This document shows, one piece after another, positions 1 through 21,176 of a stretch of 40,212 nucleotides of DNA (positions are counted from its first letter, which is position 1; each line of letters opens with the position of its first letter). Below the pieces are notes generated by a model, which did no database searches, was not told the origin of the DNA, and saw only the letters and a program-made list of their open reading frames with translations. Source of the stretch: Acidobacteriota bacterium (GTDB lineage: Bacteria; Acidobacteriota; Blastocatellia; Pyrinomonadales; Pyrinomonadaceae); assembly GCA_020200235.1 (NCBI GenBank), contig JAIVJC010000034.1, positions 1 through 40,212 on the forward strand, in the 5' to 3' direction. The position numbers were made by a program, and so were the translations under genes.

Positions 1-837
1 GATCTGCGCCTGCGCATGATCGACACCCTCGACCGCATCCCGCCCGACGCGCCGCCGCAGGACGCGCGCTCCGCCGCCACCTTCGCCGTCGTCGGCGCGG
101 GCGCGTCGGGCGTGGAGCTCGCGACGAAGATGGGCGACCTGCTGGCGGAGGCTTTCCGGCGGCGCGGCATCCGCGGCGAGCCGCGCGTGATGATCCTCGA
201 GATGGGAGAGCGCGTCGTGCCCGGCATGGACGAGGAGCTCCGCGGCGTGGTCGAAGAGGCTCTCAGGGAGTCGCGCGTCGAAGTCCACACGAAGACGCGC
301 GTCGTGCGGCTCACGCGCGACGCGGTCAGGTTCGAGCACGACGGCGCCGAGTCGGAAGTGGAGTGCGCCGGCACGATCTGGACGGCGGGCGTGCGCGTGA
401 ACCCGCTGATCGAAAAGTTAGACGTGGAAAAGGATCGGCGCGGGCTCGTCGTCGTCGAGCCGACGTTGCAGGTGCGCGGGCGCGAGGGCGTTTTCGCGCT
501 CGGCGATCTCGCGCTCTTCCGCGACATCCCGCCGACGCTCGCGGGCACGGCGCAGCTCGCCTTCCAGCAGTCGTCGCTCGCAGGCAAAAACGTGCGCGCG
601 TTCCTCGAAGGCAAGGAGTTGGAGACGAAGCGCTTCGCCGAGCTGGGCGAAGCCCTGAGCTTAGGAACAGAGAACGCGGCGGTGCTGGTCGGCGGCAACG
701 TGGTCAGCGGCGCGATGGCGCGGCGCGCGCGCTTCGCGCTCTACACACAGCGCCTGCCGACGTGGCAGCACCGCCTCAGGGTCGGCGCGAGCTGGTTCTT
801 CGGCGGCACGACGCCGCGCCCTCTATCGTTGGAGTGA
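1..837 (+). CDS. Type II NADH dehydrogenase / FAD-dependent pyridine nucleotide oxidoreductase, C-terminal part (5' end outside window)
   Basis: The reading frame is open from base 1, so the gene starts upstream; the ATG at 16 is internal. About 278 residues are visible. A second Rossmann motif (VVGAGASGVELA) binds NAD(P)H. It is followed by an acidic-end strand (MILEMGERV), the TIWTAGV segment and the FAD-contacting block VFALGDLA, the usual order in the C-terminal two thirds of NDH-2 enzymes. The final basic, aromatic stretch (LPTWQHRLRVGASWFFGG) resembles the membrane-association tail of that family. NDH-2 passes electrons from NADH to quinone at the inner membrane without pumping protons. 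Other pyridine nucleotide-disulfide oxidoreductases without the catalytic cysteines remain possible. The stop is 2 nt before a palindromic repeat. Confidence 0.85.
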   Translation, partial: DLRLRMIDTLDRIPPDAPPQDARSAATFAVVGAGASGVELATKMGDLLAEAFRRRGIRGEPRVMILEMGERVVPGMDEELRGVVEEALRESRVEVHTKTRVVRLTRDAVRFEHDGAESEVECAGTIWTAGVRVNPLIEKLDVEKDRRGLVVVEPTLQVRGREGVFALGDLALFRDIPPTLAGTAQLAFQQSSLAGKNVRAFLEGKELETKRFAELGEALSLGTENAAVLVGGNVVSGAMARRARFALYTQRLPTWQHRLRVGASWFFGGTTPRPLSLE

Positions 838-838
838 A

Positions 839-998
839 GTCGGAACCGCCTGCGGTAGCGGGCGGGAGTTGGGATCGCGGATTGCGGATTTCGGATTGCG
901 GATTCTAAGCAGGAGGGCTCGGGCGCTCTCCATTCCGCATTCCGCATTCCGCAATCTAACAATCGGCAGGCCCGCCCGCTACCGCAGGCGGTTCCGAC
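839..998. repeat. Composite inverted repeat: 28-nt palindromic arms enclosing an inverted heptamer array
   Basis: The outer arms are 839-867 (GTCGGAACCGCCTGCGGTAG and on) and its reverse complement at 971-998. Inside them lie four GCGGATT-type heptamers (877-904) and three ATTCCGC heptamers (932-952) in inverted orientation, with a spacer of about 25 nt. The same outer arms recur at 6680, 9275 and 21017. The same heptamers recur near 21060, 23631 and 30087. Confidence 0.9.
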
Positions 999-1020
999 AG
1001 GGCTTAATCGGGATCGAGTC

Positions 1021-1299
1021 ATGGCGAGAGGTTGGGGCAAGTCAGCCGAGGAGGTGGAGCAGGAGGCGGAGGAGCGAGCGCGGAGCCGCGCCGCGCCCCG
1101 GCTCGACGACTCTACGGAAGCGCGCGGGCGGCGCGAGCGGCTCGAAACGCTCCGGCTCTCGCGCGCGCGCACGCTCGAACAATTAGAACGCTCCACCACG
1201 CGCGCCCACCGCGAGATGCTGCAACGCACGCTGCGCGCCGTCGAGTCAGAGATCGAGACGTTGAATCGCGATGACGATTCGTCCGCGCGCCCCGCTTAA
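1021..1299 (+). CDS. Small charged coiled-coil protein of unknown function
   Basis: This 92-residue protein begins MARGWGKSAEEVEQEAEERA and is rich in Arg and Glu. It is predicted to be almost entirely helical: heptad-like spacing of Leu around residues 40-80 (LETLRL, LEQLERS, MLQRTLRAVESEIETL) suggests a coiled coil. It has no cysteine, signal peptide or membrane segment, so it is probably cytoplasmic. This frame was chosen over a shadow at 1032-1274 because it has the full helical pattern and ends 3 nt before the convergent gene's stop. No function is claimed. No strong ribosome binding site is seen; the start lies 22 nt after a repeat. Confidence 0.6.
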   Translation: MARGWGKSAEEVEQEAEERARSRAAPRLDDSTEARGRRERLETLRLSRARTLEQLERSTTRAHREMLQRTLRAVESEIETLNRDDDSSARPA

Positions 1300-1302
1300 C
1301 GT

Positions 1303-3000
1303 TTACCCGCGACCACGCGCGGCGTAAGGGTAGATGGGCTCGATGTCCACGGGCACGTTCTTCAGGCGGTCGAGCGCGCCCTGCATCTGCGGGCGGACGA
1401 CGCCGTAGCGGTCGAGCATCGCCTTCGCCTTTTCGTAGGAGCCTTCCGCCTGGAGCGTCATGATGTCGTGCGCGAGCTTACGCACGCCCTCCTTGAAGCG
1501 CGCGGGGACGACAGCGAACGTGCCCGCGCGCTCGTCGAAACGGATCGCGCCCTCGTCCGCCAGGTAGTTGAACTGGAGCGCGATGCCCTTGCCGTGCGCC
1601 TCCGTGATGCCGAAGCGCACGGAGCGGAACATGCTCGCGAGGAAGGTCGTGTAGAGCGTTTGCTCCATCCGCCGCTCGACCACCCCCTTGTCGATCAGGT
1701 ACTGCAGAGCCCACAGCCCCGTCACGTCAGCCTTCGCCTCCTCGATCGCCGAGTAAGTGTCTTTCAACTGCCCGCGCACGGTCGTCGCCTGCCCGCCCGC
1801 CGTGATGTTGTGCGGGCCGAGCCCGTGCATCAGCTCGTGCGCGAGGACGTGCGTGAAGAACGCCTCGAAGGAGACGTCTCGGAGGTCGGCGGGCGCGAGC
1901 ACGACGCGCGAGATGGGGACGAGCGTCTGGTCGAACTTCGCCGCCTGCACGTTCCTCAGCATGACGCGCTTCGAGCCCTTCTCCTGCACGACGCGCTCGT
2001 CGTTCGGCAAATTAAACGCGGCGGTCTGCACGCCCGTGTTGCCCTCGCCCGAAGAGAAGACGACGTTGACGACGCGGATCGGAGACGCCGCGCCGAGCTT
2101 CGGGTTGCGGTAACGCGGATCGATGGGGAGGTTGTTTTCCAGCTCCTGGAGGTAGTTGCTGAAGTGCGAGAGCTTGGCGGACTCCGCCTCGTCGCGCAGC
2201 GTGACGTATGCTTCGAAGGCGGCTTTGTAGTTGAAGAGCTCGTCGGAGTAAGTCTCGTAAGGACCGATCGTCACGTCGATGGGCGAGTCCAAATCCATCC
2301 ACGCCACGTCGGACGCGTAATAGTCATCATTCAGAAAAGCGTCGGCGCGTTTGTTCAGAAACTTTCGGAGCGTGGCGTTCGTCGTCCGTCCCGCCGCCTC
2401 CCGCAGCAGGCGCGCCGCCGGGCGCAGGAACTGCGCGTACTCGCGGCTGTAAGGGACTGCGATCAACCGCCCTCGCGCGTCGCGGCGGATGGCGTGGAAG
2501 AAGCCCACGGCTTTTTTCTTCTCTTCGGGCGGGAGCGTCGCGACCCACGACTCGAACTCCTGCTTCGTCATGTCGTCGGGGTAGTGAGCCGCCTGCGGCG
2601 GGCGCACGCGCGGCACGCCCGCGAGGAAGGCGACGTTCTCGTCGAGCTGCGACCACGCGCCGTCGTTGATCATGAAGTAGTGGAGGCGCGCGCGCCCGAG
2701 CGGCGTGCGGTCGCGCGAAAGGCGCGCGAGCAGCGCCTCGTTGCCGCTCCAGACCTGGCGGCGGTAGAGCGGGTCGAGCAGCTTCGCGGCTTCGACGACA
2801 CGGGCGAGCGCCTGCCGGTCACGCGGCGAGAGGCGCGAGGTGTCGGCGGTGATGACGGTCGGGGCGAAGCGGCGGATGCGCGCGTTCAACTCGGCGAGAC
2901 CGGGCGCCCCCTCCTGCCCCCGCGCGCGCGGCGCGGCGGGCGCGCAGAGCAGCACGCTCAGCGCGAAGACCAAGACGCAAGCCTTCCTCAGGGTTCTCAT
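1303..3000 (-). CDS. M49-like (dipeptidyl-peptidase 3 family) secreted zinc peptidase
   Basis: This is a 565-residue protein with an N-terminal signal peptide (Arg-rich start, hydrophobic LVFALSVLLCAPAA core). The zinc site is HVLAHELMHGLGPH near two thirds of the length, followed by EEAKAD, which supplies the third ligand. Eukaryotic DPP III has a six-residue HExxGH motif; this protein has an HExxH form, as some bacterial relatives do. The expected activity is removal of dipeptides or cleavage of short peptides outside the cytoplasm. The start is ATG at 3000, supported by AAGGAG 10 nt upstream. The frame has no stop upstream and runs into the tricorn gene, so gene callers may report one 1763-residue fusion. 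The ribosome site and signal peptide argue for a separate protein. Confidence 0.8.
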   Translation of the reverse strand: MRTLRKACVLVFALSVLLCAPAAPRARGQEGAPGLAELNARIRRFAPTVITADTSRLSPRDRQALARVVEAAKLLDPLYRRQVWSGNEALLARLSRDRTPLGRARLHYFMINDGAWSQLDENVAFLAGVPRVRPPQAAHYPDDMTKQEFESWVATLPPEEKKKAVGFFHAIRRDARGRLIAVPYSREYAQFLRPAARLLREAAGRTTNATLRKFLNKRADAFLNDDYYASDVAWMDLDSPIDVTIGPYETYSDELFNYKAAFEAYVTLRDEAESAKLSHFSNYLQELENNLPIDPRYRNPKLGAASPIRVVNVVFSSGEGNTGVQTAAFNLPNDERVVQEKGSKRVMLRNVQAAKFDQTLVPISRVVLAPADLRDVSFEAFFTHVLAHELMHGLGPHNITAGGQATTVRGQLKDTYSAIEEAKADVTGLWALQYLIDKGVVERRMEQTLYTTFLASMFRSVRFGITEAHGKGIALQFNYLADEGAIRFDERAGTFAVVPARFKEGVRKLAHDIMTLQAEGSYEKAKAMLDRYGVVRPQMQGALDRLKNVPVDIEPIYPYAARGRG

Positions 3001-3160
3001 CTGACGGACACTCCTTCGCGTGATCGGTGTTGATTCGTGATGAGTTAATTTAACGCCGCCGACGTGTGGCGGTAAAGCGGGACGACGCGGCGGCGGCTCC
3101 ATTCGATCTTGGATGATGCCGCGCAGACAAAATCGGCTCGGCGCACCGTCCGTATAAGTT

Positions 3161-3358
3161 GAGCCCCGAAGGGGCGCGATTGAATAGCCAGGGGCAACGC
3201 CCCTGGTCAGTCCGGCATTACCGCCATGTGGAGCCCCGAAGGGGCGAAATAAATTCCCCACGAGATTTATTTCGCCCCTTCGGGGCTGAGACATCATTTC
3301 GGGCGCGCGTTCCAGGGGCGTTGCCCCTGGCTGTTTAATTTTGCCCCTTCGGGGATTG
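3161..3358. repeat. Cluster of nested palindromes (CCCCGAAGGGG and CCAGGGGCAACGCCCCTGG types)
   Basis: Three palindromic cores lie in 200 bp. A left unit at 3161-3206 has AGCCCCGAAGGGGC followed by CCAGGGGCAACGCCCCTGG. A central hairpin at 3232-3285 has arms AGCCCCGAAGGGGCGAAATAA. A right unit at 3311-3354 is the reverse complement of the left one. Together they make a large inverted repeat with a hairpin in the middle, a non-autonomous REP/MITE-like arrangement. It sits exactly where tricorn homology stops (3373). A related but different cluster lies at 10293-10492. Confidence 0.85.
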
Positions 3359-3372
3359 GACGAAGCGGGCGC

Positions 3373-6300
3373 GCCCTCGTCAACGAAGCGGAAGGTGGGC
3401 GCGCTCAGGCTCCCGCCGTCGGCGAGCGACGGCGTGCCGCTGAGACCGATCAGCCCGCCCCACGTCGTCGTGCCGAAGATTCTGCCGAGGTTGCGCTCGC
3501 GGAAGTAGAAGGGGAAGGCGTCGCCGCCCGATCCGGCGTAGCCGTTCGTGAGCATCGCCTTCGGTCCCGTGTGGGCGAAGCCGGGCGAGGAGTAGACGTC
3601 GCCGCCGCGCCGCGTCCAGTAGCTGGCGGGCCTGCGCTCCAGCAGCTCGATCATGCGGTCGGGGATGAAGCCGCCGCCGTTGTAGCGATCGTCGATCAGC
3701 AGCGCGTCCCTGTTCGCCTGCGCGTAGAAGCCCTTGAACAGCTCGCGGTTCCCTTCGGCCGCGGTGTTCGGCACGTGGATGTAGCCGATGCGACCGCCTG
3801 ACAACTTATCGACCATCGCGCGGCGCGCCTGCACCCAGTCGAAGTAGCGCAGGTTCGACTCGCTGCGCACGGGCCGCACGCGCTCGTCGTGCGCGCCCGC
3901 GCCGTCCGAGCGGTCGCTCAACGAGAGCGTGACGACGCGCTGCGCCTTGCCTTCGAGCAGCTCGAAGAAGTTCCTGACGCCTTTCGTCGAGCGACCGTCG
4001 ACCGCCGTGATGAAATCGCCGACCTTCGCCTTCACGCCGGGCTCGGTGAGCGGCGAGCGGAAGGACTCCTGCCAGTTCTCGCCGGGGAAGATTTTGGCGA
4101 CACGGAAGTAGCCGGAAGGGTCTTGGACGATCTCCGCACCGAGCAGCCCGCCGTCGTTGCGCGGGACGCGCGGCGGATCGCCGCCGCGCTCGACGTAGAC
4201 GTGACCCGCCATCAGCTCGCTCCCCATCTCGGTCATCACGAAGTTCAGGTCTTCGCGGTTCGCGATGTGGGGCACGAGCGCGGCGTACCTGGCGCGGATC
4301 GCGTTCCAGTCCACGCCGTGCATGTTCGGGTCGTAGAACCAGTCGCGCATGGTGCGCCAGGCGTCCGTGTACTCCTGCGCCCACTCCTTGCGCGGATCGA
4401 TCTTCATCGTCATGCCTTCGAGCTTGAGCAGCCCCTGATCCGGCTTCTGCGCGGGCGCGACCGGCGCGATGCCGTAGTTGTCGCGCCCCTGCTGGAAGAT
4501 GATGCGCTTGCCGTCCGCCGAGAGCTCGTAGTCGCCGATGCCCTCGATGATCGGCTGCTCGGCTTTGGCTTCGAGGTTGTAGAGCGAGAGCCTGCCCGGC
4601 CCCGAGACGTAGAGCACGCCGTCGTTCGTCGCCGAGAGGTGGCGGTAGTTGGCGGGCTGACCCGGAATGGCGCGCACGCGGCTCTCGAAGCCCGCGAAGT
4701 CGATCTTGACGGGCGCGACCGCGGGCGCGTTCGTTTTCTTCTCGTCGCCTTTGGCGTCCGTCGCCGCGGGCGTCGGGGATGCCTGACCCTGCGCGGGCGA
4801 CGCCGAAGGCGACGGCGAGGCTTGCGCTTCGGGCGACGCCCCCGGAGAGGCTTGGGGCTTCGCGCCCTGCGGCGGCGGCTGCTGACCGGGCGCGGGCGGC
4901 TGCGTGAGCGGCTGCTCCTTCGTCTTCGAGCGCTCCTCGTCGCTCGTCGGGAGGAAGAGCGGGGGCGCGTCCGCCGAGAGCAGCCCGACGTAGACGCGCG
5001 CCGGGTTCGTGTAGACGTAGTCGAACTCCCACGAGCTGAACGTGAGGTTCATGTCGCGGTTCGAGAGGAAGTAGAGGTAGCGACCTTTGGGATCGAAGAC
5101 CGGCTGGGTGTCGCTCGTCATCCCGCCCGTCAGCTTCTGCGTGCGCTTGTCGGGGACGGAATAGACCCAGATTTCGGACGACTGGTTGTCGCCCTGCTTC
5201 GTGTAGGCGATCCAGCGGCTGTCGGGAGCCCACGAGTAGGTCGTGATGTCGTTGTGGATGCTGCTGTCGACGTTGGTGGTCTGCCCCGACGCGACGTTGA
5301 CGACGCGCAGGCGCTTCTTCTTGTCGCCGTAGGAGAGCATCGTGCTGTCGGGCGACCACGCGACGGGGTAGCGCCACACGTCGCCGTCGGTCGAGACGCG
5401 CCGCTCCGCGCCCGCGCCGTCCGAGGGTCGCACGTAAATCTCGTACTCGCCCGAACGATCCGAGAGGTACGCGACCCAGCGACCGTCGGGCGACCAGGCG
5501 GGCGCGACCTCCCTCACGCCCTGCGAGTCGGTGAGGTTGCGCACCTCGCCCTCCTTCGCCGGGGCGGTGAAGATGTCGCCGCGCGCGCCGAACAGGGCGC
5601 GCACTCCCGTGGGCGAGATGGCGTAGGTCTCGACGGACTGCTTCACGTTCTGGAAGTAGGGCACGGTGTCGGCGAAGTCGCCGTAGACTTTGATCGGCAC
5701 ACGCTCCGTCTTACCCGACTTCGCGTCGAGGCGGTAGACGTAGCCGCCCGACTCGTAAACCAGCTCGTCGACAGCTCCGCTCAGCCACTGCGCGTCGTAG
5801 TCCGCGTGGGTCGTCACCTTGCGCGTCTGCTTGGTGCGCGTGTTGTAGGCGAAGACGTTCATCGTCCAGTCGCGGTCGGACAAATAATAGATCGTGTCGC
5901 CCAGCCAGACGGGGAGCATGTCCTGCGCGCGCGTCGTCGTGATCTGCTCGGCGGTGTTGCCCGCGAGGTCGTAGATCCACACGTCGGGCGACTGACCGCC
6001 GCGGTAACGCTTCCAGCCGCGGAACTCGTTCGAGATCGGCGTGAAGGCGACGCGGCTGCCGTCGGGCGAATAGCTCACGCCGCCCGCCTCCGTGATCGCG
6101 AGCGGCTGCTCCATGCCGCCCTCGACGGGGACGAGGTAGGGGCGACCCAGACGGTCGCTCGGTCCCACGCGGTTCGCGCGGAAGAGGACGTTCTTGCCGT
6201 CGGGCGTCCAGCCGAGCACGCGGTTGTCCCACCCGCCGCGCGGCGGCAGCGGTCCCACCTCGTTGCGGTAGGTGAGCTGTCGCGGCTCGCCGCCCTCAGC

Positions 6301-6594
6301 CGCGATGACGAAGACCTGGCGCGTGCCGTTGTACTCGCCGGAGAACGCGATCCAGCGACCGTCGGGCGAGAACTTCGGGAACAGCTCTATCCCGGCGTGC
6401 GACGTGAGGCGCCGCGCGGTTCCGCCCGACGCGGGGACGGTCCAGATGTCGCCCGCGTAGACGAAGGCGACTTGGTCGCCGCGGATGTCCGGGAAGCGCA
6501 GCAGGCGCGCGAGGTCGTCGGCGCGCGAGGCTTGGGCGGAGGCGACGACAGCGCAGGCGAAGAGCAGCGCGGAGAGCAAGAGCGATCTGAACAT
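3373..6594 (-). CDS. Tricorn-type S41 protease with signal peptide, 3' end lost at a repeat cluster
   Basis: The order is signal peptide (residues 1-25); WD40/TolB-like beta-propeller repeats (many FSPDGRWIAF- and WSPDGRWVAY-type blades, about 30-560); a Pro/Gln/Ala/Ser-rich linker (about 570-640); the C1 domain with a conserved His (ELMAGHVYVERGG); a PDZ domain (KVGDFITAVDGRS); and an S41-type core with the nucleophile serine in NGYAGSGGDAFP near residue 1020. The family degrades oligopeptides, here outside the cytoplasm. Homology stops at TFRFVDEG (3373), just before the palindromic cluster. The usual C-terminal segment with the catalytic Glu and the ENxGVxPD-type motif is absent. The frame stays open through the repeats into the downstream peptidase. 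The start is ATG 6594 with AAGGAG upstream. Confidence 0.88.
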
Positions 6595-6679
6595 CCTTCT
6601 ACTCCTTACATTCGACTCGGGTGCGGGTTCAAACGTGCGGGACTGTGTCTGACGCCGGCGGGTGCGGTCCGGTTTCGCG

Positions 6680-6754
6680 GTCGGAACCGCCTGCGGTAGC
6701 GGGCGGGTATTCTATCGTCGGACATACCCGCCCGCTACCGCAGGCGGTTCCGAC
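6680..6754. repeat. Near-perfect 31-bp inverted repeat hairpin (GTCGGAACCGCC family)
   Basis: Arms 6680-6710 and 6724-6754 are exact reverse complements around a 13-nt loop. The arm sequence matches those at 839, 9275 and 21017. It lies between the tricorn start and the 3' end of the dusB unit. Confidence 0.92.
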
Positions 6755-6768
6755 AAAGCGGGCGGAGA

Positions 6769-6933
6769 TTAGCCCTCTCCCTTGTTGTCCTGCACGCCGT
6801 CCAGCGGATCGGCGCTCAGGATCGTGCTCATCCCCTCGTTCTCTTCCGCCGAGGTCGGGGCGTCCGCTTCGGCTGCGTCGCCGCGCTCGCCGGCGCGGTC
6901 GTCGTCTTCGCGTCTCGTCTGCTCGTCCGTCAC
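6769..6933 (-). CDS. Possible small acidic protein downstream of dusB
   Basis: A GTG-initiated frame of 54 residues starts 20 nt after the dusB stop. The leader reads GGGGAGGGGAGTAGTC before GTG, a good ribosome binding site. The product (VTDEQTRREDDDRAGERG and on) is very acidic, probably disordered, and ends DGVQDNKGEG. Position and ribosome site suggest co-expression with dusB. No family is recognised. The frame is also open upstream inside dusB, so coding is not proven. Confidence 0.4.
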   Translation of the reverse strand: MTDEQTRREDDDRAGERGDAAEADAPTSAEENEGMSTILSADPLDGVQDNKGEG

Positions 6934-6953
6934 GACTACTCCCCTCCCCGGCT

Positions 6954-8018
6954 TCAGACTTCCACCGTCGCGGCTTCGCACGAGTCGAGCGCGGGCGCGT
7001 CTTCCGGCTCGCTCGCTTCGCCCTCGCCGACGTAAGTCAGACCCGCGGCGACGGTCTCGAAGTACTCCTCGATGCGATCCAGGACTTCCGCGACCGCGTG
7101 CGAGTGGTAGATGACCTGGCGGAAGCGCGAGCCGCCGGGCAAGCCCCGCGTGAACTGCCCTGCGAGCTGCTTCATGCGGCCGACGGCGGCGAACTCCGGC
7201 ATGTCGGCTCTCAGCAGGTCGAAGTATTCGATCAGCACTTCGCGCTTGTCGGCGAGCGTCGGCTCGAAGGGCTCTCGCCCCGCGATGATCTCTTCGATCT
7301 GCCGGAAGATCCACGGGTTCGCCATCGCGCCGCGCCCGATCAGGATGCCGTCACAGCCGGTCTCGCGCCAGCGCGCGAACGCCTCGGCGGGCGTCGTCAC
7401 GTCGCCGCTGCCTGAGACGGGGACGCTCACCGTCTCCTTGATCTGGCGCACCAGGTCCCAGTTCGCGCGCCCCTTGTAGCCCTGCTCTTTCGTGCGGCCG
7501 TGCAGCGCGATGTGCTCGACGCCGCACGCCTCGGCGAGCTTGGCGGTCTCGACCGCGTTGATGTTGTTGTCGTAGTAGCCCGCGCGGATCTTAACGGTGA
7601 GCGGGATCGTGATCGCGCGCTTGATCTCTTTCAGGATCGTCTCGAGCCGCGAGTGGTCGCGCAGGAGACCCGATCCGCCGCCGTGCTTGACGACTTTGGG
7701 CGCGGGGCAGCCGCAGTTCACGTCGAGGATGTCGGCGCCGATCTCTTCAGCCATCTCGGCGGCCATGCGCATGCGCTCGGGCTGCCCGCCGAAGATCTGC
7801 ACGGCGAACGGCCGCTCGTAGTCGAAGAAGCGCATCTGCCGCTTCGACTTCGGGTTGTTGCGCGTCAAGCCCTCGACCGAGATGAACTCCGAGACGGTCA
7901 AGCCGATCCCGCCTCTGCGCTTCAGCAGCGCGCGGAACGGCACGTCCGTCACGCCCGCCATCGGCGAGAGCACGAGCGGCGGGCTGATCTCAACGTCCCT
8001 GATCTTGAAAGGCTTCAT
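6954..8018 (-). CDS. dusB: tRNA-dihydrouridine synthase (DusB type)
   Basis: This 354-residue FMN enzyme reduces uridine to 5,6-dihydrouridine in the tRNA D-loop. It starts with the TIM-barrel block PPLVLSPMAGVTDVPFRAL. The family signature with the catalytic cysteine, DILDVNCGCPAPKV, is near residues 95-110. Other blocks are LTVKIRAGY, HIALHGRTKEQGYKG, PVSGSGDVTTP and GILIGRGAMANPWIF (phosphate/FMN binding), followed by the C-terminal helical tRNA-binding domain. The first barrel strand and the spacing match DusB (nifR3-like) rather than DusA or DusC. The last 30 residues are acidic and unlike the core. The start is ATG 8018; no strong ribosome site is seen. A heptamer array lies directly upstream. 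Confidence 0.93.
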   Translation of the reverse strand: MKPFKIRDVEISPPLVLSPMAGVTDVPFRALLKRRGGIGLTVSEFISVEGLTRNNPKSKRQMRFFDYERPFAVQIFGGQPERMRMAAEMAEEIGADILDVNCGCPAPKVVKHGGGSGLLRDHSRLETILKEIKRAITIPLTVKIRAGYYDNNINAVETAKLAEACGVEHIALHGRTKEQGYKGRANWDLVRQIKETVSVPVSGSGDVTTPAEAFARWRETGCDGILIGRGAMANPWIFRQIEEIIAGREPFEPTLADKREVLIEYFDLLRADMPEFAAVGRMKQLAGQFTRGLPGGSRFRQVIYHSHAVAEVLDRIEEYFETVAAGLTYVGEGEASEPEDAPALDSCEAATVEV

Positions 8019-8034
8019 AAATGGAACGAGGAAG

Positions 8035-8103
8035 TATGAACGATGAACGATGAACAGAAAGCAGTAGTCTTACAGTTCATCGTTCATCGTTCATCGTTCA
8101 TCG
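8035..8103. repeat. Inverted heptamer array, GTTCATC family
   Basis: Left arm 8035-8055 has repeated GAACGAT units. Right arm 8075-8103 has four GTTCATC units. The spacer is 19 nt. The array fills the gap between the DUF4920 gene stop (8105) and the dusB start (8018). Confidence 0.9.
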
Positions 8104-8104
8104 T

Positions 8105-8662
8105 TTATTTGCGCAGCTCGACGCCCGTGGCGACGAAGCTGATCTCGTTCGCCGTGCCGTCGGGGTTGCGCGTGAGTTTCGCTCCCTCTTTCTCGTAGTG
8201 ATCCGCGTCAGCCTTGCTGAGCGTCTTGACGTTGATCGTGCCCTCCACGCGCGCCCTCAAGCCCGCCGCGTTGAAGGGGACGAAGAAGGCGTGATCCTTC
8301 ATCGCGACGCGCACGCCGCGCGCGCCCTTCTCGGGCGCGAGCTCCATCCAGCAGCCCTGCGTCTGGCAGACGCGCTCGACGACGCCCTCGACGACCACCC
8401 GCTTGCCCTCGTACTTCGCGGGCTCCTTCAACACGTCGGCGAACTTGACGGCGGGCGAGTCGCCCAAGGGTTCGCCGCGGCGGACGACTTCGCCCGGCGC
8501 TAGACGGACGTTCGCCGCCTGCTGCTGCTGGGGCGTGTGTGCCTGTTCGTGACTGTGTTTGTCGGCGTGCTCGTCGGCGTGCTTGTCGGGGTGCGACTGC
8601 GCGGCGGCGGTCAGCGCGGAGCAGCAGAGGAGGGCGGTTGCGATCAGCAGGTCTCTCATCAT
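8105..8662 (-). CDS. Secreted DUF4920 protein with histidine-rich N-terminus
   Basis: The protein has 185 residues from ATG 8662 (a second ATG follows at 8659). A signal peptide (LLIATALLCCSALTAAAQS) leads to a His-rich stretch (HPDKHADEHADKHSHEQAH) that could bind metal, then a poly-Gln run. The remainder is an OB-like domain with VVVEGVVERVCQTQGCWMEL, the Cys-x4-GCWM signature typical of DUF4920 proteins. It is predicted to be periplasmic; the paired cysteines suggest a redox or metal role, but the family's function is unknown. The longer frame to 8788 is not used because it lacks a signal peptide and would run into the divergent gene. Confidence 0.8.
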   Translation of the reverse strand: MMRDLLIATALLCCSALTAAAQSHPDKHADEHADKHSHEQAHTPQQQQAANVRLAPGEVVRRGEPLGDSPAVKFADVLKEPAKYEGKRVVVEGVVERVCQTQGCWMELAPEKGARGVRVAMKDHAFFVPFNAAGLRARVEGTINVKTLSKADADHYEKEGAKLTRNPDGTANEISFVATGVELRK

Positions 8663-8756
8663 GGGTCGGTCGAACTCTCTTTCGGGTAGAATGTCGGGTA
8701 CGCTCTCGGCAATGCTGTTAGCCTCGCGGCGTGCGCCTTGAGCCCAGAGTATAGCA

Positions 8757-9257
8757 ATGCGACACAAGCTCATCCAATCCTGCGGCATCGCGTGGACGCT
8801 CTTCTACGCCGCGTTCGTCGTCTGGCTCTACGCGACCGCCCCGCGCACGCTCAGCGAACTCCGCACCGAGGCGAGCGCGAGCGTGGGGACTTACGCGGTG
8901 GACGAGGCGCGCTTCCAGGCGGCGCGCGAGCTGTTCCGCCGCGAGCAGTACCGCGCGGCGCGCGAGGAGTGGCTCAGGGCAGACCCGGCGCGTAGAGACG
9001 CGCGCACGCAGTTCTACACGGCTTACGCCTTCTACCGAGAGGGCTGGGGTCACCTCTACAACGACGACGCGCTCTTCCGCCAGGGCGTCGAGGCAGTGGA
9101 CCTCGCGATCAAGCTGTCGCCCGGCGGCGCGCTCGCGGTCGACGATCCAGACCTCCGCATCCACTCCGCCGCCGAGCTGAAGGCGGAGCTGGAGCAGGGC
9201 GCGGAGACGACGTGGGGCGATCTCAACCCGGCGAGAGTTTTACGCGAGAGGAAATAG
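8757..9257 (+). CDS. Membrane-anchored protein with TPR-like helices, unknown function
   Basis: The protein has 166 residues. One N-terminal membrane helix (residues 8-27, IAWTLFYAAFVVWLYATA) is followed by a helical region resembling tetratricopeptide hairpins (FQAARELFRREQYRAAREEW, TQFYTAYAFYREGWG, FRQGVEAVDLAIKLSPG). Such domains usually bind partner proteins. It is divergent from the DUF4920 gene, so a promoter probably lies between 8663 and 8756. No recognised family. Confidence 0.7.
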   Translation: MRHKLIQSCGIAWTLFYAAFVVWLYATAPRTLSELRTEASASVGTYAVDEARFQAARELFRREQYRAAREEWLRADPARRDARTQFYTAYAFYREGWGHLYNDDALFRQGVEAVDLAIKLSPGGALAVDDPDLRIHSAAELKAELEQGAETTWGDLNPARVLRERK

Positions 9258-9274
9258 ACAACCGTCGCTGTCCT

Positions 9275-9349
9275 TGTCAGAACCGCCTGCGGTAGCGGGC
9301 GGGCTCTTCTCGCGTCAATCACCCGCCCGCTTGCAGCAGGCGGTTCTGA
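9275..9349. repeat. Inverted repeat hairpin (GTCAGAACCGCC variant)
   Basis: Arms 9275-9302 and 9319-9349 enclose a 16-nt loop. The sequence is the same family as at 839, 6680 and 21017, with a few changed bases (GCTTGCAGCAGGC instead of GCTACCGCAGGC in one arm). It lies 18 nt after the preceding stop. Confidence 0.9.
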
Positions 9350-9376
9350 CCTGTCGCCATTTTTATAAGAGGTCTA

Positions 9377-10264
9377 ATGACGAAGAGGCGCGAGACTGCC
9401 GGGCGCGAGAAGCGAGAGCGCGACGCGAATGGTCGCGATGAGACTGATCGCGTCGCGAATCGCCGCGAGACGAACCGCCTGCTCACAATCCACCTGCTGC
9501 TGCCGACCATCTTCCTGACGGCCGCGCTCGCGGGCGGCGTGCGCGTCGAGGGCGCGAGCCGCGCGCTCGCCTTCGTCGCCCCGCCGCTCGTCACGCTCGT
9601 CCTCGCCGTCCTGCTGCTCGCGCTCTTCGCGCGCGGCCGTCTCGTCGATCTGCCGGGGTGGCTCTCGCACGACAACGCGCCGCTCGCCAACCTCTCGCAC
9701 GCGCTCACGCTCCTCTCGCTCTTCTTCGCCTCGGCGCAGGCGTTCAACAGCGTGCTGCCCGACGCCGGACTCTTCCGCTGGCTCTTCTCTTTCTTCTTCC
9801 TCTGGACGCTCTGGCAGAACCAGTTCGCCTCGCTCGACGCGCGCCGCACGCTGCGCGCGGTCGTCGCGCTCTTCGGCACGGCGTTCGCCCTCAAGCACCT
9901 GCTGCTCGCGAGCCTCTACGCGCCCGAAGGCGGATGGCTGCGCCGCGTCGCGGGCGCGCTCGTCGAAGGCGTCACCCAGGGGAGCCTCGGCGAGCAGCCG
10001 ACGGTCGCGCCGTCCACCGGCTACATCTCTTTCTTCACGCTCGCGCTCTACGTCGTCGGTCTCATCCTTCTCCCGCGCGCGCCGGGCGAAGGGTTGAACG
10101 AAGCGACGCGCGCGCTCAGCGTCGTCGAGGATCACAGACGACTCGCGACTGTCGAGCGCGACGAGGCGCGCGCCGAAATCCTGCGCGCAGAGTTGAGACG
10201 ACTCGAAGCGGGAGACCGGGAGCCGCGAGGGGTTGAAGAGTTAATTAGATCAGACGACGATTAA
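9377..10264 (+). CDS. Polytopic inner-membrane protein of unknown function
   Basis: The protein has 295 residues. The N-terminus is strongly charged (about 30 residues, KRRETAGREKRERDANGRDE). Around five or six membrane helices follow (LLTIHLLLPTIFLTAALAG, LAFVAPPLVTLVLAVLLLAL, LSHALTLLSLFFASAQAF, LFRWLFSFFFLWTLW, VVALFGTAFALKHLLLASL, ISFFTLALYVVGLILL). The tail is charged and probably coiled-coil (VERDEARAEILRAELRRLEA). No catalytic motif is recognised. The start is ATG 9377, shortly after a repeat hairpin. Convergent with mreB. Confidence 0.75.
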   Translation: MTKRRETAGREKRERDANGRDETDRVANRRETNRLLTIHLLLPTIFLTAALAGGVRVEGASRALAFVAPPLVTLVLAVLLLALFARGRLVDLPGWLSHDNAPLANLSHALTLLSLFFASAQAFNSVLPDAGLFRWLFSFFFLWTLWQNQFASLDARRTLRAVVALFGTAFALKHLLLASLYAPEGGWLRRVAGALVEGVTQGSLGEQPTVAPSTGYISFFTLALYVVGLILLPRAPGEGLNEATRALSVVEDHRRLATVERDEARAEILRAELRRLEAGDREPRGVEELIRSDDD

Positions 10265-10292
10265 CTGAGACGGCGATCAGGGCGCGCCTTTT

Positions 10293-10492
10293 TAAGTGCT
10301 GTAAGCACGAAAGAATTTAGCCCATGGCGTAAGCCATGGGGTGCGTCATCAAAAACAATAGGGAGCCCCTGAAAGGGGCGAAAGAATCTTGACGTGAAAT
10401 TCTTTCACCCCTTTCAGGGGCTCTCGATTGTTTGCGTCCTGATCCCACGGCTCGCGCCGCGGGCTAAATTCTTTCGCCCCTTTCAGGGGCTC
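10293..10492. repeat. Palindrome cluster, AGCCCCTGAAAGGGGC family
   Basis: The cluster has small palindromes (GTGCTGTAAGCAC near 10296; CCCATGGCGTAAGCCATGGG near 10321) and an inverted pair of AGCCCCTGAAAGGGGCGAAAG-type units (10352-10387, 10393-10425). A third copy in the second orientation ends near 10492. The architecture resembles the cluster at 3161-3358 but the core sequence differs. It sits between convergent genes. Confidence 0.82.
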
Positions 10493-10548
10493 GCGATCTG
10501 GATCGCGCGAGTACTTCTCCCGACACGAAAAAGACGCCGGGTGACTCG

Positions 10549-10601
10549 CAAAAATAAAAACGGGCGGCGGGAAAAACGTTTCCGCGTTCCCCGTCGCCCG
10601 T
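10549..10601 (-). terminator. Intrinsic terminator of mreB
   Basis: Read on the minus strand, a 12-bp GC-rich stem (arms 10590-10601 and 10560-10571, one mismatch) is followed by TTTTTATTTTT (10549-10559). It lies 24 nt after the mreB stop. This is the clearest rho-independent terminator in the window. Confidence 0.85.
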
Positions 10602-10624
10602 CACGGTTTACCCGCCCGCGGCTC

Positions 10625-11701
10625 TTACCAGTTCACGACCAGCTCTTCGGAAGCCTGCCACACCGGCGCGTCCTCGCGGATCGCGGCGCGCTGCAAGCGC
10701 TCCTTTTCGGCGAGCAGGCGACCCGCGCCGACGGCGACCGCGCAGAGCGGGTCTTCGGCGACCGCGACGTGGAGTTTCAGCTCGCGCTGCAAACGATCAG
10801 CCATGCCGTCCAGGAGCGCGCCGCCGCCCGTCAGGATCAGCCCCGTCTGGTAGATGTCGGCGGTCACGTCCGGCTGCGACTCTTCGACGGCGCGGCGCGC
10901 CCCCGCGACGATCTCCGCGACGACCGGCTCCAGAGCCTCGCGCACCTCGTCCAAGCCGATCTCGACCGCCTTCGCCATCCCCGTCGTCAGCTCCTTGCCG
11001 ACGACCTCGACGCGCTGCGGCTCCGCGACCGACTCCCCGGCGGCGCGCTTCTCGCCCAACTGCTTCTTCAACTGTTCGGCGGTGCGCTCGCCGAGCTGCA
11101 TCTCGTACTTCGCGCGGACGTAATCCCTGATCGCCTCGTCCATCGCGTTGCCCGCCGTCTTCAGGCTGTGCGACGAGACGACCGCGCCCGAGGCGACGAT
11201 GGCGATGTTGGTCGTGCCGCCGCCGATGTCCACGATGAGGTGCGCGCGCTCGTCTTCGTTGGTGAGCCCCGCGCCGATCGCGGCGCACAGCCCCTCGTCG
11301 ACGAGATCGACGCGCCCCGCCTTCGCGTCGCGCGCGGCGTCGCGCACGGAGCGGCGTTCGAGCTCGGTCGAGGAGCCGGGCACGCCGATCACCATGTGGC
11401 TGCGCTTGAGCCGGTCGTCCTGCACGCGGCGGATGAAGGCGACGAGCATCTTCTCCGCCGCCTCGAAGTTCTCGATCGTGCCGTTCCTCACGGGGCGGAA
11501 GACGTCTACGTCCTTCGGCACTCGACCGACCAGCTTGAACGCCTCGCCGCCGACCGCCAGCACCTCGCCCGTGTACTTGTGGATCGCCACCGCCGACGGC
11601 TCGTTGACGACGACGCCGCGACCGGGCGCGTAGACGAGCGTGTTGACGGTGCCGAGGTCAATCGCCAGGTCTTCGGAGAAAAAGTTGTCCAGAATGTTCA
11701 T
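10625..11701 (-). CDS. mreB: Rod shape-determining actin homolog MreB
   Basis: The protein has 358 residues. It begins with an amphipathic membrane-binding start and the phosphate 1 loop DLAIDLGTVNTLVYAPGRG. Further motifs are the phosphate 2 loop HLIVDIGGGTTNIAIV (near residue 160) and the adenosine motif GLILTGGGALLDGM (near 290). IGVPGSSTELERRSVRDA and DEGLCAAIGAG are also typical. MreB polymerises under the membrane and guides lateral wall synthesis, so a rod-shaped cell is suggested. The start ATG 11701 is preceded by AAGGGGACTGT. No mreC, mreD or rodA follows; a terminator closes the gene. MreB paralogs in other roles are possible. Confidence 0.92.
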   Translation of the reverse strand: MNILDNFFSEDLAIDLGTVNTLVYAPGRGVVVNEPSAVAIHKYTGEVLAVGGEAFKLVGRVPKDVDVFRPVRNGTIENFEAAEKMLVAFIRRVQDDRLKRSHMVIGVPGSSTELERRSVRDAARDAKAGRVDLVDEGLCAAIGAGLTNEDERAHLIVDIGGGTTNIAIVASGAVVSSHSLKTAGNAMDEAIRDYVRAKYEMQLGERTAEQLKKQLGEKRAAGESVAEPQRVEVVGKELTTGMAKAVEIGLDEVREALEPVVAEIVAGARRAVEESQPDVTADIYQTGLILTGGGALLDGMADRLQRELKLHVAVAEDPLCAVAVGAGRLLAEKERLQRAAIREDAPVWQASEELVVNW

Positions 11702-12044
11702 ACAGTCCCCTTGATTAACTTTGCGAACACGAGGAGGAAACTACGATTCGCCAATGCTTTTCAGCTTGGCAACTCGCATACCACTTGAACTTTTTCCGGC
11801 GGCGTCTCTCTTTTGAAGAGCTTAGCCTGTGGATTTCTCGCGCCCGCGCCCGGCGCCCCGTCCGCTTATGAGACGCACAGACACCTTTTTACCGGCTTGA
11901 GCCGCTTGAAAGGCGAACGGCAAGTGGGCAAATAATCCGGGGTGGAGGGGAGGGAGTGAGAGGCGGGTCGAGCGAACTGTGTGGGGTTTCGGTGCGCGCC
12001 GTCCTGATAGCGCGCTCACCCCGCGGGCTCACCGGGCGACATTT
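11702..12044. other. Intergenic stretch between mreB and rqcP
   Basis: This 343-nt gap lies upstream of mreB and downstream of rqcP. It should hold the mreB promoter, but no convincing -35/-10 pair stands out. A short inverted repeat (CGGCTTGAGCCG, near 11899) and a purine-rich run (GGGGTGGAGGGGAGGG, near 11940) are present. A 65-codon minus-strand frame (11822-12019) has no ribosome site and is not called. Confidence 0.5.
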
Positions 12045-12329
12045 TTACTCCGGGTCATCATGGTCGTCGCGCGCGCGCTCGTCCCTGATCGTCTCGTAGA
12101 GCGCGGCGGCTTCCGCCTTCGAGACGTTGCGCGACGCGGGCACGCCGACGACGCGCAACGTAGTCAGCCGGTCGCGCCGCCTGAGCGCGATCACGTCGCC
12201 CTCGCGCACCGACCGCGACGAGCGCGCCGCCACGCCGTTGACCGTGACCGCGCCCGCGTCGCACAACTCCTGCGCGACCGTGCGCCGCAGCACGATCCGG
12301 CTCGCGCGTAAGAACTGATCGAGACGCAT
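12045..12329 (-). CDS. S4-domain RNA-binding protein, RqcP/Hsp15 type
   Basis: The protein has 94 residues. The whole core is an S4 alpha-L RNA-binding domain: MRLDQFLRASRIVLRRTVAQ, then DAGAVTVNGVAARSSRSVREGD, then strand IALRR. The opening and size match RqcP (YabO) and the related Hsp15. These bind 50S subunits carrying nascent chain-tRNA and act in ribosome-associated quality control. The acidic tail (ETIRDERARDDHDDPE) resembles the RqcP end. The start ATG 12329 has no ribosome binding site: eight nt upstream begins a 35-bp hairpin (12337-12417). Assignment between RqcP and Hsp15 is uncertain. Confidence 0.83.
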   Translation of the reverse strand: MRLDQFLRASRIVLRRTVAQELCDAGAVTVNGVAARSSRSVREGDVIALRRRDRLTTLRVVGVPASRNVSKAEAAALYETIRDERARDDHDDPE

Positions 12330-12336
12330 AAAAATA

Positions 12337-12417
12337 AGGGGACGGGGGATAGGGATCGGGGGTTGGGGAAACCGATATTGATTTCCCCAACCCCCGATCC
12401 CTATCCCCCGTCCCCCG
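12337..12417. repeat. Inverted heptamer-like array, CCCCGAT/CCCTATC family, near-perfect hairpin
   Basis: Arms 12337-12371 and 12383-12417 are almost exact reverse complements, built of roughly 7-nt steps (CCCCGAT, CCCTATC, CCCCGTC). The loop is about 11 nt. On the minus strand the hairpin is followed by TTATTTTT, directly before the rqcP ATG, so it looks like a terminator between the foldase gene and rqcP. Confidence 0.88.
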
Positions 12418-21016: not shown

Positions 21017-21176
21017 GTCAGAACCGCCTGCGGTAGCGGGCGGGTCTATCGATTGTTAGAATGCGGAATGCGGAATGCGGATTGAAGAGCACTCAAGCCC
21101 TCTGCTGGAAATCCGCAATCCGGAATCCGCATTCCGCAATCTCGTCACCCGCCCGCTTGCGGCAGGCGGTTCCGAC
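21017..21176. repeat. Composite inverted repeat with nested heptamer array
   Basis: Outer arms 21017-21045 and 21146-21176 belong to the GTCRGAACCGCC family. Inside them are GAATGCG-type heptamers (21059-21087) and inverted ATCCGCA/ATTCCGC heptamers (21110-21142). The architecture matches 839-998. The 3' end of the minus-strand TPR gene runs into it and stops in the loop at 21093. Confidence 0.9.

Follow-up and report, generated by a model that had tools for sequence, protein, structure and literature searches.

Why does a tricorn protease gene of an uncultured soil acidobacterium stop short of its C-terminal tail and continue, through a palindromic repeat, into a second peptidase gene? The stretch of DNA analysed (the window, 40,212 nt) is the whole of contig C81 from a 4.08-Mb, 87.6% complete genome in 258 contigs, whose nearest relatives, judged by nearest homologues, are metagenome-assembled genomes of Acidobacteriota/Pyrinomonadaceae. 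A first, sequence-only reading had described a continuous frame of 1763 codons with a tricorn protease followed in frame by an M49-like peptidase and a cluster of palindromes between both parts, and all of this was recovered (Table 1): domain and PDB matches assigned the N-terminal side to tricorn and the C-terminal side to M49, and in the single frame the tricorn gene is separated by 378 nt of other DNA from an M49 dipeptidyl-peptidase III-like gene, which is complete. The same reading had the frame open through 370 nt of repeats; it is indeed open, but the non-homologous stretch measures 378 nt, of which just 195 nt are repeat.

Table 1. Features of the tricorn–M49 locus in the window
Feature	Coordinates	Strand	Basis
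Continuous frame, 1763 codons	1303..6594	(-)	
Tricorn protease gene, codons 1-1072	3379..6594	(-)	Pfam and PDB matches; alignment with 20 orthologues
Junction between element and tricorn, 22 nt	3357..3378		Local alignment
Palindromic element, complete, 195 bp	3162..3356		Copies aligned, sharp common boundaries
Second Acido-Lenti-1 unit, outward facing	3312..3356	(+)	26.3 bits, E = 6.7e-4, below gathering score
Central hairpin, 23-nt perfect arms	3232..3287		
Acido-Lenti-1 (RF01687) unit, outward facing	3162..3206	(-)	39.7 bits, gathering score 37
M49 leader with AGGAG at 3011-3015	3001..3161	(-)	Sequence
M49 dipeptidyl-peptidase III-like gene, 565 codons, complete	1303..3000	(-)	PF03571; PDB 5zum, E = 6.5e-197
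Small 92-aa gene, directly after tricorn in congener	1021..1299	(+)	80% identical in L097
Pyridine nucleotide-disulphide oxidoreductase gene, cut by contig end	1..837	(+)	PF07992; collinear in congener

Loss of the tricorn tail

The tricorn part retains a signal-like leader, beta-propellers (PD40), Tricorn_C1, PDZ_Tricorn and the S41 core up to ...TFRFVD, and the detection of the Tricorn_C1, PDZ_Tricorn and S41 domains places the protein in the tricorn family of S41. Its S41 profile match stops at position 149 of 165, whereas that of the congener reaches 165. The last homologous codon is 1072, an Asp at 3379-3381, and not position 3373 as first proposed, the E and G of the 'VDEG' string being junction sequence. 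The protein thus lacks its last 63 residues, including an active-site residue, whereas the orthologue of the congener (L043/L097, 79% identical) runs on for 63 residues, VNGNWAVEGVGVDPD...NQK.

A scan of GTDB genomes returned 80 homologues, and the 79 that were uncut by a contig end before the break point were counted. The tail with the catalytic Glu (VE-x-x-G-V-x-P-D), absent in the window, was kept in 79/79, the congener included. This Glu aligns with position 997 of the 1k32 chain, 1023 in 1n6d numbering, which we take to be the catalytic E1023 of tricorn. Compared with the Thermoplasma acidophilum tricorn (PDB 1k32, 1n6d), to which the propellers, C1, PDZ and S41 core align by sequence, the window protein halts about 8 residues before E1023 and is devoid of the rest of the C2 domain. 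The alignments with homologues and with the Thermoplasma enzyme therefore bear out the earlier claim that the catalytic Glu and the ENxGVxPD segment are absent. Orthologues naturally ending at the break, which that reading had considered as an opposing outcome, were not found among the 79 homologues reaching it. Because all of these keep the tail, its loss is not a matter of chance; it is real in the assembly and clearly derived.

When the missing tail was searched for elsewhere in the source genome, only paralogue tails of 34-43% identity were detected, ruling out a piece displaced to another site. A simple insertion of the element with the tail left downstream was also ruled out, as no piece of the tail was found in 3001-3161. 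The tricorn remainder showed no sign of pseudogene decay: in the alignment with 20 orthologues, 0 of 206 otherwise-invariant positions were changed, and unique changes numbered 22 in the window vs. 30 in the congener. As the remainder is free of decay, the loss looks recent, or the shortened protein may still be useful. A product lacking both the catalytic Glu and the final part of the S41 fold would be inactive or unstable and, judged from its sequence, the truncated protease is probably inactive.

The source genome carries four further tricorn homologues. In a full-length paralogue (L021, contig C146), the same element is present again about 60 nt past the stop codon, and contig C146 terminates within that copy. 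A tricorn orthologue (L102, G007:C236) contains one in-frame TAG before its contig end, with the remainder on contig C96.

Probable replacement of the tricorn 3' end

Collinearity between the window and the congener (L097) extends to either side of the break, over window 12368..3378 and 1244..283, and between these flanks the congener has 314 nt, corresponding to the tail, stop, intergenic DNA and end of the small gene, vs. 2134 nt in the window. This block of about 2.1 kb is made up of the M49 gene with its leader and a single 195-bp palindromic element, which is intact. Because both flanks are collinear and 314 nt have been swapped for about 2.1 kb, the event, as read from this comparison, is a replacement and not a simple deletion at a repeat. 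An inactive protease or a repeat-linked deletion producing a fusion had been the two options offered before; the loss of the tail and the likely inactivity stand, whereas the deletion does not. M49 was not found in the congener, which is 86% complete; with this one genome for comparison, the gene may have been gained here or lost there.

The M49 gene bears the signature of its domain, HELMHG (zinc-site motif) and EEAKAD (EE-x-K/R-AD motif), aligned with 5zum, and its homologues in 10 related genomes are 62-76% identical, the sequence around the gene differing from genome to genome. A ribosome site at 3001-3015 had been taken as a hint that the gene still starts independently, and the AGGAG agrees with this, as do the ATG that comes after it at 2998-3000 and the hydrophobic leader: M49 probably starts on its own. 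Because of this AGGAG and leader, the fused tricorn-M49 frame is treated as probably a coincidence. The 378-nt stretch was kept open in 6.2% of dinucleotide shuffles, and with the chance of about 1/3 of being in register with M49, this gives around 2%, so that the open frame alone is only mildly unusual. Two other Acidobacteriota genomes showed weak M49-like matches (24-26% identity) next to tricorn (L098 and L103); these lie on the opposite strand, some hundreds of nt upstream of it.

The element is built as a pair of inverted terminal units around the central hairpin, and its ends are the same, and as sharp, as in eleven other aligned copies. Its subfamily numbers about 20 copies in the source genome, and as single-stranded DNA it folds with z = -12. 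The tricorn gene had been described as cut exactly at a palindrome ending at 3358; the element is in fact complete, it ends at 3356, and the break lies 22 nt beyond. This junction (GAGGGCGCGCCCGCTTCGTCCA, coding strand) resembles the neighbouring tricorn bases with a 7-nt gap. An alignment score at least as high was obtained for 0.5% of shuffles and for 1% of 22-mers drawn at random from the window, which weakly suggests a templated insertion.

We consider it fairly probable that the tricorn 3' end was replaced by the M49 gene, its leader and the element, the latter being the paired inverted terminal repeats, in non-autonomous form, of a Y1 (IS200-like, HUH) transposase family. What is seen directly is that the tail is missing here and kept in all relatives reaching the break, that the flanks are collinear with those of a congener having neither M49 nor the element at this place, and that such ends flank Y1 genes. 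Illegitimate recombination close to the element would have brought in the block, possibly with the element hairpins as primers, and the junction bases look templated; we infer this part of the element in the rearrangement from its position alone. On this reading, the frame runs through the element into M49 by coincidence, and most M49 would be produced from the start of its own gene.

The contig comes from a metagenome assembly and might contain an error or combine several strains, in which case the real tricorn would be full-length and the 3357-3379 junction would come from reads misjoined at the palindromic repeat. The 258 contigs and 87.6% completeness of the genome, the end of contig C146 inside an element copy and the absence of decay in tricorn would all fit such an artefact, but the block is bordered on either side by sequence collinear with the congener, so that misassembly would have required two independent false joins to bring M49 to this place. 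Moreover, element copies differ by 16% or more and therefore share no long k-mers, the element and the gene are not contiguous but 22 nt of junction sequence apart, and the tail is on no other contig, making this explanation unlikely.

The absence of relaxed selection could also mean that a shortened or fused product still works. A shortened tricorn might keep a non-proteolytic role, such as peptide binding via propeller and PDZ, with the tail dispensable and the four further homologues of the genome able to supply activity; dispensability is, however, not seen elsewhere, because no scanned homologue has lost the tail, and we regard such a role as quite improbable. The same intact remainder would suit a selected fusion in which a single two-peptidase protein comprises the tricorn core, a 126-residue linker and M49, as would the 378 nt being open and in register and the fact that, among 30 elements examined in the source genome, no full-length one apart from the window copy has a long open frame running across it. 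Nevertheless, the protein has lost the catalytic Glu together with the end of the fold, M49 retains a ribosome site and leader of its own, translated repeat would make up about half of the linker and no such fusion was found in any relative of the GTDB scan. The readthrough fusion of two peptidases proposed earlier, of about 190 kDa, found no positive support as a selected product, and we hold it to be very improbable.

Acido-Lenti-1 units and Y1 transposases

Both terminal units of the element carry GGCTAA-type linkers and match the Acido-Lenti-1 RNA family (Table 1); weaker Rfam matches at the palindrome (microRNA and other unrelated families) were far below cut-offs and were taken as chance. 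The source genome has 77 RF01687 matches, in which the close pairs are all outward facing (34/34, minus then plus), 27 of them being 186-230 bp long. One pair of 641 bp encloses a 146-aa ORF identified as Y1_Tnp (PF01797, E = 9.6e-25). Genes for Y1 (HUH) transposases flanked by terminal inverted repeats were found in this genome on contigs C186 (L208 1831-2471, this 641-bp pair) and C133 (L228); the second, on C133, has the same inverted arms with the TTAGCC...GGCTAA linker, although these arms do not score as RF01687. The window copy contains no transposase, and the source assembly has no transposase copy with the exact ends of its subfamily. A second Acido-Lenti-1 pair of the window (10295-10491) belongs to a subfamily similar to the ends found on either side of the C186 Y1 gene; like the element at the tricorn gene, it is absent from the collinear congener.

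In relatives, Y1 homologues at eight loci (L229, L230, L232, L238, L241, L252, L255 and L256) have RF01687 matches no more than about 150 nt away, on the minus strand upstream and on the plus strand downstream, some of the matches being below the gathering score; L234 and L235 have matches in other arrangements and many remaining Y1 loci have none. Of 297 genomes taken from across the phylum, 78 contained RF01687 matches. A Y1 homologue was present in all genomes with at least 30 matches (19/19), whereas none of 41 Y1-negative genomes reached this number, although some have up to 29 (Fisher p = 1e-5, genomes being treated without correction for relatedness). Four cut-offs, that of 30 included, were tried, and each gave a significant result. 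Within one genus (g34), the near-closed genomes G038 and G077 (L256) have one Y1 gene and 42-45 Acido-Lenti-1 matches each, and G034, G088, G091 and G094 have neither.

Acido-Lenti-1 was listed as 'probably RNA', and not cis-regulatory, in Weinberg 2010 (PMC2864571), and a paper of June 2026 speculates that it regulates Tannerella proteases, adding that little is known of its function (PMC13298647). The two-hairpin unit with a GGCUAA-type linker is found here at both ends of the element, in agreement with the RNA family, but the outward-facing pairs flanking transposase genes fit DNA ends better than an RNA gene. TIRtrons/TIRYTs, already described with acidobacterial examples included, are similar in having an HUH-Y1 transposase flanked by long terminal inverted repeats and dispersed copies, often dimers (Di Nocera 2013, PMC3733652); in contrast, the repeats found here match RF01687, a link absent from the section of that paper on such elements, and the window copy is without transposase. 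Close to the present layout are also the TnpA-Y1 class 3 genes of Acidobacteria and Planctomycetes, which are flanked by atypical high-copy hairpins (Quentin 2018, PMC6006769). No published link between RF01687 and a transposase was found in the consulted parts of the literature naming Acido-Lenti-1, although the 2010 supplement may discuss it.

From its arrangement, RF01687 is probably a transposon end rather than an RNA gene. That Acido-Lenti-1 is the terminal DNA hairpin of a phylum-wide Y1 family that spreads transposase-free pairs, and that it contributed here to the arrival of a peptidase gene at the end of tricorn, is proposed tentatively, with doubt slightly outweighing confidence. The tricorn truncation itself is local in significance. 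Annotation pipelines report Acido-Lenti-1 as a non-coding RNA; if it marks transposase-family ends instead, such annotations would have to be changed, and the present evidence puts the question within reach of a test.

Two further arrangements of repeats were observed. On contig C244 (L207 477-1733), an Acido-Lenti-1 pair 1257 bp apart has no transposase between its units and encloses ORFs of 243 aa (DUF6338) and 125 aa, possibly cargo. Another palindromic repeat family, with GTCGGAACCGCCTGCGGTAGCGGGCGGG arms, occurs in the window at 839-998, 6680-6754, 9276-9350 and 21021-21044, with six exact 24-mers vs. none in shuffles, and the regions with the first three of these repeats are shorter in the congener.
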